Of a stretch of 64,000 nucleotides of DNA, positions 58,758-64,000 are shown one piece after another. How positions within the stretch are numbered: position 1 is the stretch's first letter; the number at the start of each line of letters is the position of its first letter. The notes beneath the pieces are model-generated. The model did not search any database. It saw nothing but the letters and a program-made list of their open reading frames with translations, and was not told the DNA's origin. Origin of the DNA: Paenibacillus andongensis (GTDB lineage: Bacteria; Bacillota; Bacilli; Paenibacillales; NBRC-103111); NCBI RefSeq assembly GCF_025369935.1, contig NZ_CP104467.1, positions 6,145,001-6,209,000 on the forward strand. The letters are read 5' to 3'. A program made the translations under genes and the position numbers.

Positions 58758-59930
58758 CTAACCGCGAAGGGCTTGTTCCAAATCTTCAATAATGTCTTCG
58801 ATATCTTCAAGCCCTACCGAATAGCGCACAAGACCGTCCGTAATGCCGCGCAGTAAGCGAACTTCCTTCGGCATCGAGGCATGTGACATCATAGCCGGAT
58901 AGGATAAGATACTCTCCACTGCGCCCAAGCTTACCGCAACAAGTGGAATACGTACTTTGCTTAATAGCTTTTTCGCTTTCTCGCCGGATCCAACATCGAA
59001 CGAAACAACCGCTCCATAGCCTAAAGACTGCTTTTCATGAGCTTCTCTACGAGGGTGGTTTGGAAGTCCAGGGTAGTAAACAACATCAATATCAGGCTGC
59101 TCTGAAAGCCAATTTGCCAATCTACGGGCACTAGTTTCGGACATTTCCATACGAGCTCGCAAGGTCTTCATCCCACGGATCAACAGCCAAGAATCTTGAA
59201 TGCCGAGCACATTCCCCATGCCATTCTGGATTTGTTTCATTCTGCGACCTAAATTGTCATTAGCAACTACAGCTAGCCCAGCAAGAACGTCACTGTGTCC
59301 GCCGAGGAACTTTGTTGCGCTATGCAGCACAATATCGATACCCAGCTCGATTGGCCGCTGATGGTAAGGGGTCATGAACGTATTATCCAGCATCGTAAGC
59401 AAATCGTGCTCTTTAGCAAAAGTAGCAACTTCGGCGATGTCTGTAATTCGGAGTGTCGGATTCGAAGGTGTCTCGATAAATACGGCTCTTGTGTTAGATC
59501 GCAGCGCTGCACGTACTTGGCTTATATCGGTCATATCAACGAATGTTGACTCAACACCCATACGATTCATAATCGTTGTCAGCAGGCGATAAGTACCACC
59601 ATAAACATCTTCGGTACAAATAACATGATCACCCTGCGACAACAGCATGAAAGCTGATGAAATAGCCGCCATACCTGAGGCGAAAGCGAAGCCGCGTGTA
59701 CCGCCTTCGAGTAATGCAATGTAGTCTTCCAAAGCTTGTCGGGTTGGATTACCAGAACGCGTATAGTCATACTCTGGCGAGACTTCTAAGTCGGCTTGAT
59801 GAAAGGTCGAGGCTTGATACAGAGGCACACTGGATGCCCCTGTCGCTTCATCGATCTCTCCACCGAAATGAATGAGCTTCGTTGCGAATTTGCCATGCGG
59901 CTTACGTTTATCATCTTGTGGATGGCTCAT
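58758..59930 (-). CDS. metC: cystathionine beta-lyase (Cys/Met PLP-dependent family)
   Basis: A 390-residue PLP enzyme. Features: YDYTRSGNPTRQALE, ASGMAAISSAFMLLSQGDHVICTEDVYGGTYRL, VFIETPSNPTLRITD, and the Schiff-base Lys in VLHSATKFLGGHSDVLAG. Together with the adjacent MetI-like protein it fits the metI-metC pair, converting O-acylhomoserine plus cysteine through cystathionine to homocysteine. The overlap TAATG with metI indicates coupling. A gamma-lyase activity cannot be excluded from sequence. Confidence 0.9.
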   Translation of the reverse strand: MSHPQDDKRKPHGKFATKLIHFGGEIDEATGASSVPLYQASTFHQADLEVSPEYDYTRSGNPTRQALEDYIALLEGGTRGFAFASGMAAISSAFMLLSQGDHVICTEDVYGGTYRLLTTIMNRMGVESTFVDMTDISQVRAALRSNTRAVFIETPSNPTLRITDIAEVATFAKEHDLLTMLDNTFMTPYHQRPIELGIDIVLHSATKFLGGHSDVLAGLAVVANDNLGRRMKQIQNGMGNVLGIQDSWLLIRGMKTLRARMEMSETSARRLANWLSEQPDIDVVYYPGLPNHPRREAHEKQSLGYGAVVSFDVGSGEKAKKLLSKVRIPLVAVSLGAVESILSYPAMMSHASMPKEVRLLRGITDGLVRYSVGLEDIEDIIEDLEQALRG

Positions 59931-61099
59931 TACAGCGAATCTCCTTCCAATTCGGCTTGCGCCTTGCTGAGGGCATTCGAAAGATCCGCGATCAGATCAT
60001 CAATATGCTCGATGCCAACAGAGAAGCGTAAAAGACGGTCATCTACACCGATTTGTTGACGAATTTCGAGTGGAATATCTGCATGTGTTTGCACAGCCGG
60101 ATAGGTCATAAGTGATTCGACACCGCCTAAGCTTTCCGCGAAAGCAATGAGCTGGATGTGACGAAGAATCGGTTCAATCAGTCTCGCATCCGTTACTTTA
60201 AAAGAGAAAATGCCCGTGTTTCCACTCGACTGCTTATTTTGAATTTCATAACCAGGGTGTGTTTCAAGTGCTGGGTAGTAAACTTCACCGATCAGCGGGT
60301 GTTCCAATAAGAACTTCGCGATGGCCGTTGCATTCTGCTCATGACGCTCCATACGAAGCGCAAGCGTCTTCATTCCCCTCATAAGGAGCCAGCTATCTTG
60401 CGGTCCAAGCACAGCACCAATGGAATTGTGCAGGAAAGCCATCTGCTCTGAGAGTTCTTTGCCCTTGGTCACGATGAGACCAGCGAGTACGTCATTATGA
60501 CCGCCGAGGTACTTGGTTGCGCTATGAATGACGATATCAGCACCAAGCTCAATAGGGCGTTGAAGATATGGTGTTAACAACGTGTTATCGACAATTGATA
60601 CGATACCCTTCTTACGAGCCCATGTACACACAAGTTCAAGGTCTGTAATCATCATCAGCGGATTCGTCGGTGTCTCAATGACAAGCCCTTTGGTATTCGG
60701 CTGGTACGCCGCTTCCAGCCCATCTAAATCATTCGTATCAACATACGTAGCGGTCACACCGAAGCGCGACATGATTTTCTCAAGCAGACGATACGTACCG
60801 CCATATAAATCCAAGGAAACAATCAGATGATCTCCTTGGCTGAAATAAGCGAATATGGTTTGCAGCGCAGCCATTCCTGAGGAACAAGCAAAGCCTGCAT
60901 CTCCTGACTCTAGTTGAGCAATAGCATCCTCGAGCACCTTGCGAGTCGGGCTTTTGGTACGTGCATAGTCGAATCCTGTACTTTGCCCAAGCTTCGGATG
61001 ACGGAAAGCAGTAGCTTGGTAGACTGGGAAGCTGATAGCTCCAGTAACGGGTTCTTGAATAGAGCCAATTTGGGCGAGACGACTTTCGATTTTCAACAA
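59930..61099 (-). CDS. metI: cystathionine gamma-synthase / O-acylhomoserine thiolyase
   Basis: A 389-residue PLP enzyme, a paralogue of the next gene: FDYARTKSPTRKVLE, CSSGMAALQTIFAYFSQGDHLIVSLDLYGGTYRL, VIETPTNPLMMITD, and the Schiff-base Lys in VIHSATKYLGGHNDVLAG. MetI of Bacillus joins O-acetylhomoserine with cysteine or sulfide. It lies 34 nt after metA and shares one base with metC. Under S-box control from the riboswitch ahead of metA. Confidence 0.9.
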   Translation of the reverse strand: MLKIESRLAQIGSIQEPVTGAISFPVYQATAFRHPKLGQSTGFDYARTKSPTRKVLEDAIAQLESGDAGFACSSGMAALQTIFAYFSQGDHLIVSLDLYGGTYRLLEKIMSRFGVTATYVDTNDLDGLEAAYQPNTKGLVIETPTNPLMMITDLELVCTWARKKGIVSIVDNTLLTPYLQRPIELGADIVIHSATKYLGGHNDVLAGLIVTKGKELSEQMAFLHNSIGAVLGPQDSWLLMRGMKTLALRMERHEQNATAIAKFLLEHPLIGEVYYPALETHPGYEIQNKQSSGNTGIFSFKVTDARLIEPILRHIQLIAFAESLGGVESLMTYPAVQTHADIPLEIRQQIGVDDRLLRFSVGIEHIDDLIADLSNALSKAQAELEGDSL

Positions 61100-61133: not shown

Positions 61134-62078
61134 TTACAATTGCGAGCTTGCCAAGCTTTCGTTGATGTTCGTGTTCAGTTCAAAAGGCGTTTCTTGATAG
61201 ACATAGTAATTCAACCAATTGGAGAAAAGCAGGTTCGCATGAGCTCTCCAAGTATTATAAGGCTGTCTGCTCGGATCATTATTCGGGTAATAATTTTTAG
61301 GAATATCGATGGAAAGCCCTTTACTGACATCCCGATCGTATTCCCATTTCAATGAACAAGCATCATATTCCGAATGTCCGGTTACGAAAATATGCTTTCC
61401 ATCTCGCGTTGCGGCGATATAAACACCGGATTCTTCAGATTCCGATAAAATCTCCAAATCCGGACATTGCTCAATGTCTTCACGACGAATATCCGTATGA
61501 CGCGACTGCGGTACATAAAAGACTTCATCAAAGCCGCGCAGCAGCTTTGTATTCGGTACCTGAACGGTATGAGGAAATACACCGAACATCTTAGTATCGA
61601 GCGCAAACTTTCGCACACCGAAATGATGATATAAGCCCGCTTGAGCTGCCCAGCAAATATGCAGAGTAGAAGTGACGTTATGCTTACTCCAATTCAGGAT
61701 TTGCGTCAATTCCTCCCAGTAATTCACATCTTCAAACTCCATCTGTTCAACAGGAGCCCCCGTGATAATCATACCATCCAGCTTTTCATCTTTAATATCG
61801 TCAAATGTTTTATAAAACATTTCCAAATGCTCAACGGAAGTGTTCTTAGAAGTATGAGTTTTAGGATGCAGAAGCACGAATTCCACCTGCAATGGCGTAT
61901 TCCCGATTAAGCGCAACAGCTGCGTCTCCGTCGTTTCTTTCGTTGGCATCAAATTCAATAATGCAATTCGAAGTGGACGTATATCCTGGTGATACGCGAC
62001 AGATTCGTCCATGGTGAAGATGTTCTCTTGGTTTAAAATTTCTTTGGCAGGCAGGTTGTCAGGAATCTTGATCGGCAT
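61134..62078 (-). CDS. metA: homoserine O-acyltransferase (MetA)
   Basis: A 314-residue enzyme that activates homoserine in methionine synthesis. Motifs: [15 protein letters not shown], the catalytic Cys in [35 protein letters not shown] and [19 protein letters not shown]. Firmicute MetA generally uses acetyl-CoA, so acetyl rather than succinyl transfer is likely but not provable here. ATG at 62078 with AGGAGTG upstream. First gene of the S-box operon. Confidence 0.94.
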
Positions 62079-62121
62079 CCTGTTCACTCCTCTTCATAAG
62101 TTTTAAATGGGTATTAAACGC

Positions 62122-62156: not shown

Positions 62157-62181
62157 GGAAAATCAAAGTCAATGTCCTTCT

Positions 62182-62307
62182 CTTATCTCCCAGATTCGCT
62201 TTAATCAGCGTTTCCGCAAGAATTAGCACCGTGCATCCCTTTGCTTGCAAAGGTTTGTCGGTTGCCGGGTGTCATAGGGCTAGTCCCTCCACCTACTCTT
62301 GATAAGA
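62182..62307 (-). ncRNA. SAM-I (S-box) riboswitch of metA-metI-metC
   Basis: The reverse strand carries the conserved S-box pieces: CTTATCAAGAG (P1 and K-turn start), GGTGGAGGGACT, GCCCTATGA, ACCCGGCAACC, GGTGCTAATTC and the closing GAGATAAG. Terminator downstream at 62122-62156. High SAM should stop transcription of the methionine operon. Confidence 0.96.
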
Positions 62308-62332
62308 AAATGTAACGTATGCGATTAAAATT

Positions 62333-62554: not shown

Positions 62555-62782
62555 ATGTCAACCCAAACGATCGACAGCTTCTCCGCTTTTGCTTCATTGA
62601 ATCGCTTTTTCGCCCTCATTGAAACCACAAAACCAACCATACAACAAGCTGAGGATGCCGCAGCCCTGTTATGCCGTATCTACGGTGCTAACAGTGAAGA
62701 AGAACTGCTGCAGCGTGGTGATCCTGAATTAATTGAGATTTACAAAGAAATTAAAAACAAAATTTTGAAAGCCGCCATGTAG
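62555..62782 (+). CDS. hypothetical protein
   Basis: A 75-residue soluble, probably all-helical acidic protein: FSAFASLNRFFALIETTKPT, then EDAAALLCRIYGANSEEELLQRGDPELIEIYKEIKNKILKAAM. I do not recognise it. AGAGGTCACC is placed 4 nt before the ATG (an in-frame ATG at 62528 has no SD). Its stop lies in a terminator that begins at 62770. Nothing in its surroundings suggests a role. Confidence 0.65.
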   Translation: MSTQTIDSFSAFASLNRFFALIETTKPTIQQAEDAAALLCRIYGANSEEELLQRGDPELIEIYKEIKNKILKAAM

Positions 62783-62801
62783 TCATGGTGGCTATTTTTT
62801 T
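62770..62801 (+). terminator. terminator of the small hypothetical gene
   Basis: AGCCGCCATG-TAGT-CATGGTGGCT stem and seven T residues; the stop codon TAG lies in the loop. Confidence 0.88.
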
Positions 62802-62873: not shown

Positions 62874-62902
62874 TTGAAACGTAATATATGAAGGGTTATA
62901 CT
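62874..62902 (+). promoter_or_regulatory. corA promoter
   Basis: TTGAAA (62874-62879), a 17-nt spacer and TATACT (62897-62902). The predicted start near 62909 gives a 176-nt leader before corA. Confidence 0.78.
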
Positions 62903-62942
62903 AGACAAGTATTCGACACGGACGAAAAAGGAGGGCATACGT

Positions 62943-63041
62943 TTGGACGGAGAACCGAGGAGTAGAACCTGCAAGGATCTTGAACAATTTAATAGTGTAG
63001 GAATGCAGTCGGTTATTCCTTCATCCGGAGCCTTGCTCTAA
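62943..63041 (+). CDS. 32-codon upstream ORF in the corA leader
   Basis: A TTG-initiated ORF, reading MDGEPRSRTCKDLEQF then NSVGMQSVIPSSGALL, with a strong SD (AGGAGGG at 62929-62935) exactly 7 nt from the start, ending 43 nt before the corA ATG. The SD is better placed than at many genes of this window, which is why I regard it as translated. Its codons 20-24 lie in the 5' arm of a long stem. The peptide has no recognised homologue. Confidence 0.6.
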   Translation: MDGEPRSRTCKDLEQFNSVGMQSVIPSSGALL

Positions 63042-63065
63042 CTGATGAACTAACCGACTGATTCC
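63000..63065 (+). promoter_or_regulatory. long stem-loop in the corA leader
   Basis: GGAAT-G-CAGTCGGTTA (63000-63015) pairs with TAACCGACTGATTCC (63051-63065) to form a 15-bp stem with a single-base bulge and a 35-nt loop. The loop contains the uORF stop. No T-run follows, so it is not a simple terminator; corA's SD lies 5 nt downstream. Not an M-box: the conserved M-box motifs are absent. Confidence 0.7.
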
Positions 63066-63084
63066 ATTCAAAGGGGTGGATCAG

Positions 63085-64000
63085 ATGAAAACACGGTGGG
63101 TTCAGAATGGCATTTTTACGTTGGTTGATGACGTGACTGTCGCCCTAACACCTCCAGAAAGAGGCTTTTATTGGATTGATGCAGGGGTAGAGGACTTAGA
63201 GATCCTTCAACCTTTGTTCCATCTTCATGATTTGGCCGTGGAGGATTGCTTAAGCGAAGAGGAACAACGTCCCAAAATTGAGTTCTACGATTCGCATTAT
63301 TTTATCGTTATTAATAGTATTCGATTTGATGATGAAGAAATTTTCCTTCGCGCACTTAATCTATTTCTAAGCAAACATGTCATTATTACCGTTACTAGAC
63401 AAAAAATTAATGAACTTCGAGCTTTGAAACCTTTTCTCTGGGAAGAGGAAGTAAACAGCGCTGATCGTTTTCTATACCATCTGGTCGATCTTGTCGTCGA
63501 TAATTATGTGGCGGTCGGTGACCGTATCGAGGCCAAGATTGAAAAGCTGGAAGAAGATATCTTGGTAGCAACGAAGAAGTCGCATTTGAATGAAATTATC
63601 GGTCTTCGTTCAGAGATTCTATGGCTCAAAAAAGTGCTAGTTCCTCAGCGCGATGTGATTGGAACACTTGGCAAGAAAGAGCTTAGACTGATCGACCATC
63701 AGCTGCAAAAATATTTCGGAGACATTTATGAAAATGCCGTAAAGATCGTGGATACGTTTGATACGCTGCGCGATCTCATGGGCAACTTACGAGAAGCCTA
63801 TCAGTCTAGCGTCGCTAACCGAGCGAATGAGATCATGCGTGTTTTCACAGCAACTTCGACGATCTTCATGCCTTTGACATTCATTACCGGCGTGTTCGGG
63901 ATGAATTTTGATAACATTCTCGGTCTTCATGTGGCTCATGGCGATGAAATTGTATTGGCGTTCATGGGTGCATTGGGCATAGGCATGTATGTATTATTTC
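63085..64000 (+). CDS. corA: CorA-type magnesium/cobalt transporter, 3' end beyond the window
   Basis: At least 305 residues. A large cytoplasmic N-terminal domain rich in acidic residues (LHDLAVEDCLSEEEQRPKIEFYDSHYFIVI), a long helical stalk (KIEKLEEDIL ... RANEIMRVFTATSTIFMPLTFITGVFGMNFD), and the pore signature GMN in GVFGMNFDN. The second transmembrane helix begins at the window edge. Imports Mg2+ with feedback gating by cytoplasmic Mg2+. Expression is expected to depend on the unusual leader described above. Confidence 0.93.
   Translation, partial: MKTRWVQNGIFTLVDDVTVALTPPERGFYWIDAGVEDLEILQPLFHLHDLAVEDCLSEEEQRPKIEFYDSHYFIVINSIRFDDEEIFLRALNLFLSKHVIITVTRQKINELRALKPFLWEEEVNSADRFLYHLVDLVVDNYVAVGDRIEAKIEKLEEDILVATKKSHLNEIIGLRSEILWLKKVLVPQRDVIGTLGKKELRLIDHQLQKYFGDIYENAVKIVDTFDTLRDLMGNLREAYQSSVANRANEIMRVFTATSTIFMPLTFITGVFGMNFDNILGLHVAHGDEIVLAFMGALGIGMYVLF

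Follow-up and report, generated by a model that had tools for sequence, protein, structure and literature searches.

A conserved leader open reading frame upstream of corA in Paenibacillus and related Gram-positive bacteria: a putative ribosome-sensed attenuator resembling enteric mgtQ and mgtL

In enteric bacteria, short upstream open reading frames (uORFs) take part in the control of genes for Mg2+ transporters. In Salmonella, residues Asp2 and Glu5 of mgtQ reduce translation of this uORF and raise that of MgtB by way of the pairings 1:2, 2:3 and 3:4, the last of which hides the Shine-Dalgarno (SD) sequence (PMC8092293). For the MgtL peptide, which begins with the EPDP motif, both Glu2 and Asp4 are needed; ribosomes halt once residue 3 occupies the P site (PMC11282234). 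The corA leader of enterics likewise contains a uORF, corL (PMC11552253), and a corA RNA motif has been reported from gamma-proteobacteria only (PMC6429828). In the literature that we found, ribosome-based sensing of Mg2+ by leader peptides (MgtL, MgtQ, CorL) is restricted to enterics. No paper on the Paenibacillus corA leader or on peptides with the motif described here was found, most subscription journals lying outside the search.

Here, we describe the leader of a corA gene from Paenibacillus that is located at the end of the window, i.e., the whole stretch of 64,000 nucleotides that was analyzed. Its elements are the following:

62874..62902 (+), promoter of the corA leader, TTGAAA-17-TATACT, 10/12 matches in a consensus scan, both hexamers retained in the genus alignment
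62927..62935 (+), SD sequence of the uORF, AAAGGAGGG, 8 nt separating GGAGG from the TTG at 62943
62943..63041 (+), uORF for the leader peptide MDGEPRSRTCKDLEQFNSVGMQSVIPSSGALL (MDGEPRSRTC...), TTG start, 32 codons, stop at 63039-63041
62943..62957 (+), N-terminal motif M-[D/E]-G-[D/E]-(R)P within the uORF
62949..62958 (+), arm 1, GGAGAACCGA, pairs with the arm 2 region 63009-63019 in the absence of a ribosome (pairing probability in the window 0.99)
63000..63015 (+), arm 2, distal uORF codons 20-24 plus one base, 5' arm of a 15-bp stem with one bulged G
63051..63065 (+), arm 3, 3' arm of the 15-bp stem, its end CTGATTCC doubling as anti-SD arm
63058..63084 (+), hairpin 3:4, CTGATTCCATTCAAAGGGGTGGATCAG, sequesters the corA SD and excludes stem 2:3, -10.9 kcal/mol
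63070..63079 (+), SD sequence of corA, AAAGGGGTGG
63085..64000 (+), corA for a magnesium/cobalt transporter, NCBIfam TIGR00383 above cut-off, ATG at 63085, continuing past the end of the window

The leader RNA is expected to start near 62909. An earlier note, written from the letters of this DNA alone, had described a promoter in front of the leader, a 32-codon uORF with an SD sequence and a 15-bp stem on codons 20-24 that holds the uORF stop in its loop, and all three were borne out. The duplex of the stem reaches -32.9 kcal/mol compared with -13.6 for shuffled sequences, and arm 3 ends 4-5 nt 5' of the corA SD; the window leader as a whole folds only moderately better than its shuffles (z -1.68). 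Of the architecture proposed in the note, the overlap between uORF and stem stands, but the element that hides the corA SD is the second hairpin (63058-63084) and not the 15-bp stem, which competes with it. The window RNA can, as judged by modelled folding, adopt either 1:2 together with 3:4, with the corA SD sequestered, or 2:3, with the SD freed. A pairing of TTCATC (63020-63025) with GATGAA across the corA start codon, also suggested in the note, found no support: the folds leave the start mostly unpaired (0.88), TTCATC has an alternative partner in a GATGAA within its own loop, and TTCATC itself is not retained genus-wide.

That this leader is not an M-box had been stated before and agrees with our searches. 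The covariance model of the M-box (ykoK, RF00380), which controls Mg2+ transport genes in Bacilli, as is proposed here for the corA leader, matched neither the leader nor any other site in the window's genome, and a search of the leader (62909-63084) against Rfam with E values up to 1 yielded no family. M-boxes are present in 25 of 104 family genomes.

The surroundings of the leader contain further regulatory elements. A SAM riboswitch (RF00162, 65 bits; 62180-62308, minus strand) is situated 5' of two minus-strand genes, one metA-like (61134-62087) and one similar to genes for cystathionine synthases/lyases (59930-61099). Just upstream of the corA promoter, a small ORF (75-84 aa; 62555-62782, plus strand) is followed by a strong terminator-like hairpin (62770-62793). 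The window's genome encodes three more CorA paralogs (C1:3709924, 1726236 and 6589587) with 29-33% identity; a model of the uORF motif has its single match in this genome at the corA gene of the window.

According to the note, poor conservation of the uORF start, its SD or the stem would have spoken against the proposal. This could be ruled out, as all three are kept across the order. Within the genus, the leader is present in 30/30 genomes, and the alignment shows the promoter, the SD, the start and the first codons to be retained; TTG and ATG exchange as start codon at five loci, and most length differences within the central part of the uORF come in multiples of three. In one leader (L020), a 1-nt insertion shifts the frame of the uORF while the stem is retained. 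The uORF SD varies among relatives (e.g., AAAGGGGTG or GAGGTG). For searches in the family and the class we used R1, a model built from sequence alone that covers the 5' part of the leader. At E<=0.01, R1 had a single match in each of 85 of the 104 family genomes, some nine of these matches being weak, and CorA was found in 100 of the 104. A scan of 84,980 species genomes with the exact pattern returned 38 matches, all from Paenibacillus, and from these named hits the order treated here is inferred to be Paenibacillales; the motif lies upstream of corA wherever the fetched stretch includes this gene, and for the few remaining matches the fetched stretch contained no corA. At the class level, the R1 matches outside the order were weak and none adjoins a corA gene, and collections of phages and plasmids contained no match. 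The first transcribed bases, AGACAAGTATTCGACA (62902-62919), are strongly conserved in the genus and recognizable in the family, beyond what belongs to the promoter.

Beyond the family, the same kind of uORF occurs upstream of CorA orthologs in every family of the order that was sampled, with divergent nucleotides. The peptides start, for example, with MEGDPSS, MDGDPRP, MDGDRPRS, MDGDRPKP, MEGDHPRP, MDAEPSA, MDGERSQP or MDSDPRS. Acidic residues occupy both positions 2 and 4 in 172 of 174 leaders, the other two having Asn at position 4, and Pro is found at position 5 or 6 in 167/174 and absent in seven. Among 86 non-redundant leaders, the start codon is ATG in 78, TTG in seven and GTG in one, with no other swaps; codon 2 is GAC in 71, GAA in 11 and GAT in four; codon 3 is GGA, GGG, GGC or GGT in 82, and codon 4 is GAC, GAT, GAA or GAG in 84. 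Synonymous changes at the order level comprise GAC/GAT, GGA/GGG/GGC/GGT and CCG/CCA; in addition, Asp and Glu replace each other at codons 2 and 4, and in-frame insertions of 3 nt occur (MDGDRP, RRSS). The pattern by which the order loci were searched itself demands D/E at position 2 and D/E/N at position 4, so that the fair measure is the rate of recovery: it was met at 62 of 64 order loci compared with 0.8% of dinucleotide shuffles, and in one of the 16 leaders that served as controls, 15 of them from a Brevibacillus-like family (f23) and one from another family, all outside the order. One of the two loci without a match (L217) belongs to a fragmentary genome, and the other (L232) reads MDGADP. 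In f23 a CorA ortholog is present and the region upstream of it is different; several of its members (L257-L259, L262-L267) have another conserved small ORF (...PPSRxALRSAYELILTxIWPRL...) that ends just 5' of corA.

The remainder of the peptide drifts in sequence, in length (27-56 codons for the whole uORF in the 174 leaders) and sometimes in frame, and the distal part appears to matter only as an RNA arm. The pairing of the arms is well kept: in the genus, 92.5% of the cells of stem 2:3 (15 pairs) and 96.4% of those of helix 3:4 (7 pairs) are maintained. RNAalifold derived only a weak consensus with almost no covariation from the genus alignment, because the arms barely vary there. Between genera, the arms differ and pairing persists, as in L222 (GAAAACAGTCGGT/ATCGACTGTTTTC), L062 (CCGTTTC/GAAACGG), L223, where GTTTTCGCTCTT pairs with AAGGAGTGAAAAC over the SD, and L276 (CTGATTTTTTCC/GGAGTGAATCAG). 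Stem 2:3 is more stable than in shuffled sequences both in 45 family leaders (z -3.19) and in 86 order leaders (mean z -2.74, p 2e-15); for the 3:4 duplex, the effect in the 86 order leaders is smaller (z -0.85, p 7e-8), and the overlap between the partners of 2:3 and 3:4 slightly exceeds that in shuffles (0.83 vs 0.79, p 0.008). Since the leaders are related, these p-values overstate independence. In the family, the share of the corA SD that is paired in a local hairpin did not exceed that in shuffles (z 0.06), and 3:4 is therefore the weaker of the two helices. Pairing 1:2 was marginal across the family and not significant against shuffles (z -0.32, p 0.08).

How a ribosome on the uORF would affect these pairings was modelled by equilibrium folding with the ribosome placed on given codons, the states of the window leader being taken from the partition function. 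Without a ribosome, 1:2 has a predicted probability of 0.99, 2:3 of 0 and 3:4 of 0.64. With the ribosome at codons 1-3, 2:3 rises to about 0.80 and 3:4 falls to 0.05; the values are 0.37 and 0.35 at codon 5, and 0.73 and 0.12 at codon 8. From codon 12 onward 3:4 is back at 0.60-0.64, and at codon 20 it stands at 0.64 with 2:3 at 0. In 81 leaders, moving the modelled ribosome from codon 18 to codon 3 is predicted to open the corA SD (+0.090 vs -0.038 for shuffles, p 1.5e-12); the difference exceeds that of the leader's own shuffles in 70 of the 81, and greater accessibility is likewise predicted for a ribosome at codon 5 in the family. The predicted change in accessibility is modest and depends on the assumption of equilibrium folding.

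The reading that we favor, and consider rather more probable than its negation, is that the leader is a ribosome-sensed translational attenuator of corA that is organized like mgtQ and carries a destabilizing motif like that of MgtL. The sequence of events would begin with the acidic-Gly-acidic-(Arg)-Pro start of the peptide, which is observed throughout the order. At low Mg2+, ribosomes would pause on or fall off these early codons, and at sufficient Mg2+ they would read through; this step, and with it the identity of the signal and the direction of the response, is inferred from the experiments on enteric MgtL and MgtQ. A ribosome held early would let arm 2 pair with arm 3, so that the corA SD is exposed and corA translated, while a ribosome reading on would cover arm 2 and let arm 3 fold onto the corA SD (3:4), so that corA is repressed; both outcomes rest on pairing potential and modelling. 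This core logic does not depend on arm 1, which would set only the ribosome-free outcome. In the window leader without a ribosome, 1:2 would form and the predicted state is OFF. Complete drop-off would therefore switch the window's corA off, and pausing rather than loss of the ribosome may be needed there. Translation of the uORF is itself inferred, from conservation only, with neither expression nor ribosome-profiling nor Mg2+ data available for a Paenibacillus. Two acidic residues may also be a weak destabilizer on a Gram-positive ribosome. Ribosomes of B. subtilis lacking EF-P stall on Asp-Pro repeats, and YfmR and YkpA assist at such or at charged motifs (PMC11381351), which makes early destabilization plausible in Gram-positives.

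The analogy to mgtL and corL drawn in the note turned out to be closer than claimed, the positions of the acidic codons (2 and 4) being those of MgtL and the arrangement of arms that of Salmonella mgtQ. Shared with mgtQ are early acidic residues, the alternative of 1:2 plus 3:4 or 2:3, the position of 3:4 over the SD of a Mg2+ transporter gene and, as proposed here, translational control in which impaired translation of the uORF raises the transporter. A conserved uORF (its translation being inferred) precedes a Mg2+ transporter gene and encodes acidic residues near its start, and 2:3 and 3:4 are mutually exclusive with 3:4 over the SD in the window and in the order; 1:2 is only marginal outside the window's clade. 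In contrast, mgtQ has 8 codons, lies between mgtC and mgtB in an operon and controls MgtB, whereas the corA uORF has 27-56 codons of unrelated sequence and is part of a 5' leader in Gram-positives. With mgtL of Salmonella and E. coli, the leader has in common its place in the mRNA leader of a Mg2+ transporter gene and acidic codons 2 and 4 followed by Pro (EPDP vs DGEP/DGDP/EGDP). Position and chemistry of the MgtL motif are thus kept (D/E at 2 and 4, P at 5/6), although residue 3 is Gly and not Pro. Homology to MgtL cannot be claimed, since the target is corA and not mgtA, which is controlled by Rho-dependent termination, the window lacks a site resembling an intrinsic terminator, and no similarity is evident outside the motif. 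The enteric corL resembles the uORF in its location in a corA leader, its TTG start (in E. coli) and its conserved N-terminus, but contains few acidic or Pro residues and is Rho-dependent. Because the similarity is confined to the motif, gene and phylum differ and the window has no termination signal, the leader would work like mgtQ/mgtL but is not classed as a member of either.

An obvious alternative keeps the uORF sensor and replaces its output: stem 2:3 would act as a terminator, intrinsic or Rho-dependent, instead of freeing the SD. Rho does act at the enteric mgtA and corA leaders (PMC11552253), and T tracts exist in leaders of other families, and five Paenibacillus sensu stricto-like leaders (L240, L276-L279) have at least six T after the 3' arm (CAAGCTGATTTTTTCC). 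We nevertheless regard a transcriptional output as unlikely. An intrinsic terminator, sought as a stem with a U tract on its 3' side, upstream of the gene, is absent from the window leader, the longest T run in most family leaders is 2-4, and the T run of the L240/L276-L279 type itself pairs with the corA SD region (CTGATTTTTTCC with GGAGTGAATCAG). Moreover, with a terminating 2:3, early pausing would turn corA off unless an antiterminator exists. In these five leaders, the T run ending the 3' arm could, given its complementarity to the corA SD, be part of a long-loop terminator or an anti-SD.

The nucleotides of uORF codons 2-8 (62943-62966; L001-L086) are almost frozen within the family, where only 6% of these codons are synonymous and non-consensus, compared with 36% of corA codons 2-14 in the same species; this constraint goes beyond the peptide and is unexplained. 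Together with the conserved 5' end of the RNA, the scarcity of synonymous changes would suit a box that is mainly an RNA element, an aptamer or a protein-binding site, and is translated only incidentally. This reading is improbable in our view: at the order level synonymous changes do occur while D/E-G-D/E stays, the SD is kept, start codons are swapped only for other start codons, and the sole constant sequence is short and without a match in Rfam. An additional RNA-level role of the box is, judging from the sequences, nevertheless likely, as the frozen nucleotides are not accounted for by a mechanism based on the peptide alone. There is very little to recommend attenuation by the supply of Arg or Pro, as for mgtP; codons for both are conserved near the start, but they form no run of a single residue, many leaders have other residues in place of Arg6 and Pro, the acidic ones being retained, and the target is a Mg2+ transporter. 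A functional micropeptide, to which the conserved first residues might point, is hardly credible when the distal half differs so widely in length and sequence and a frameshifted uORF (L020) still keeps its stem.

We return to the ribosome-sensed attenuator. That an MgtL-type sensor arose independently in an entire order of Gram-positives, one in which M-[D/E]-G-[D/E]-(R)P stalls or destabilizes the early ribosome at low Mg2+ and thereby frees the corA SD, is a proposal that we hold with slightly better than even confidence. The same spacing of acidic codons 2 and 4 and an SD-exposing switch throughout this order would demonstrate an origin of the mechanism outside enterics and, if true, destabilization by an early acidic nascent chain would be a general bacterial sensor of Mg2+ and not an enteric peculiarity. 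The natural variants MDGDP, MEGDP, MDGDRP, MDGDRS, MDAEP and MDGNP would provide material for tests of what destabilizes Gram-positive ribosomes, and the mechanism would explain how Mg2+ uptake is controlled in species without an M-box.
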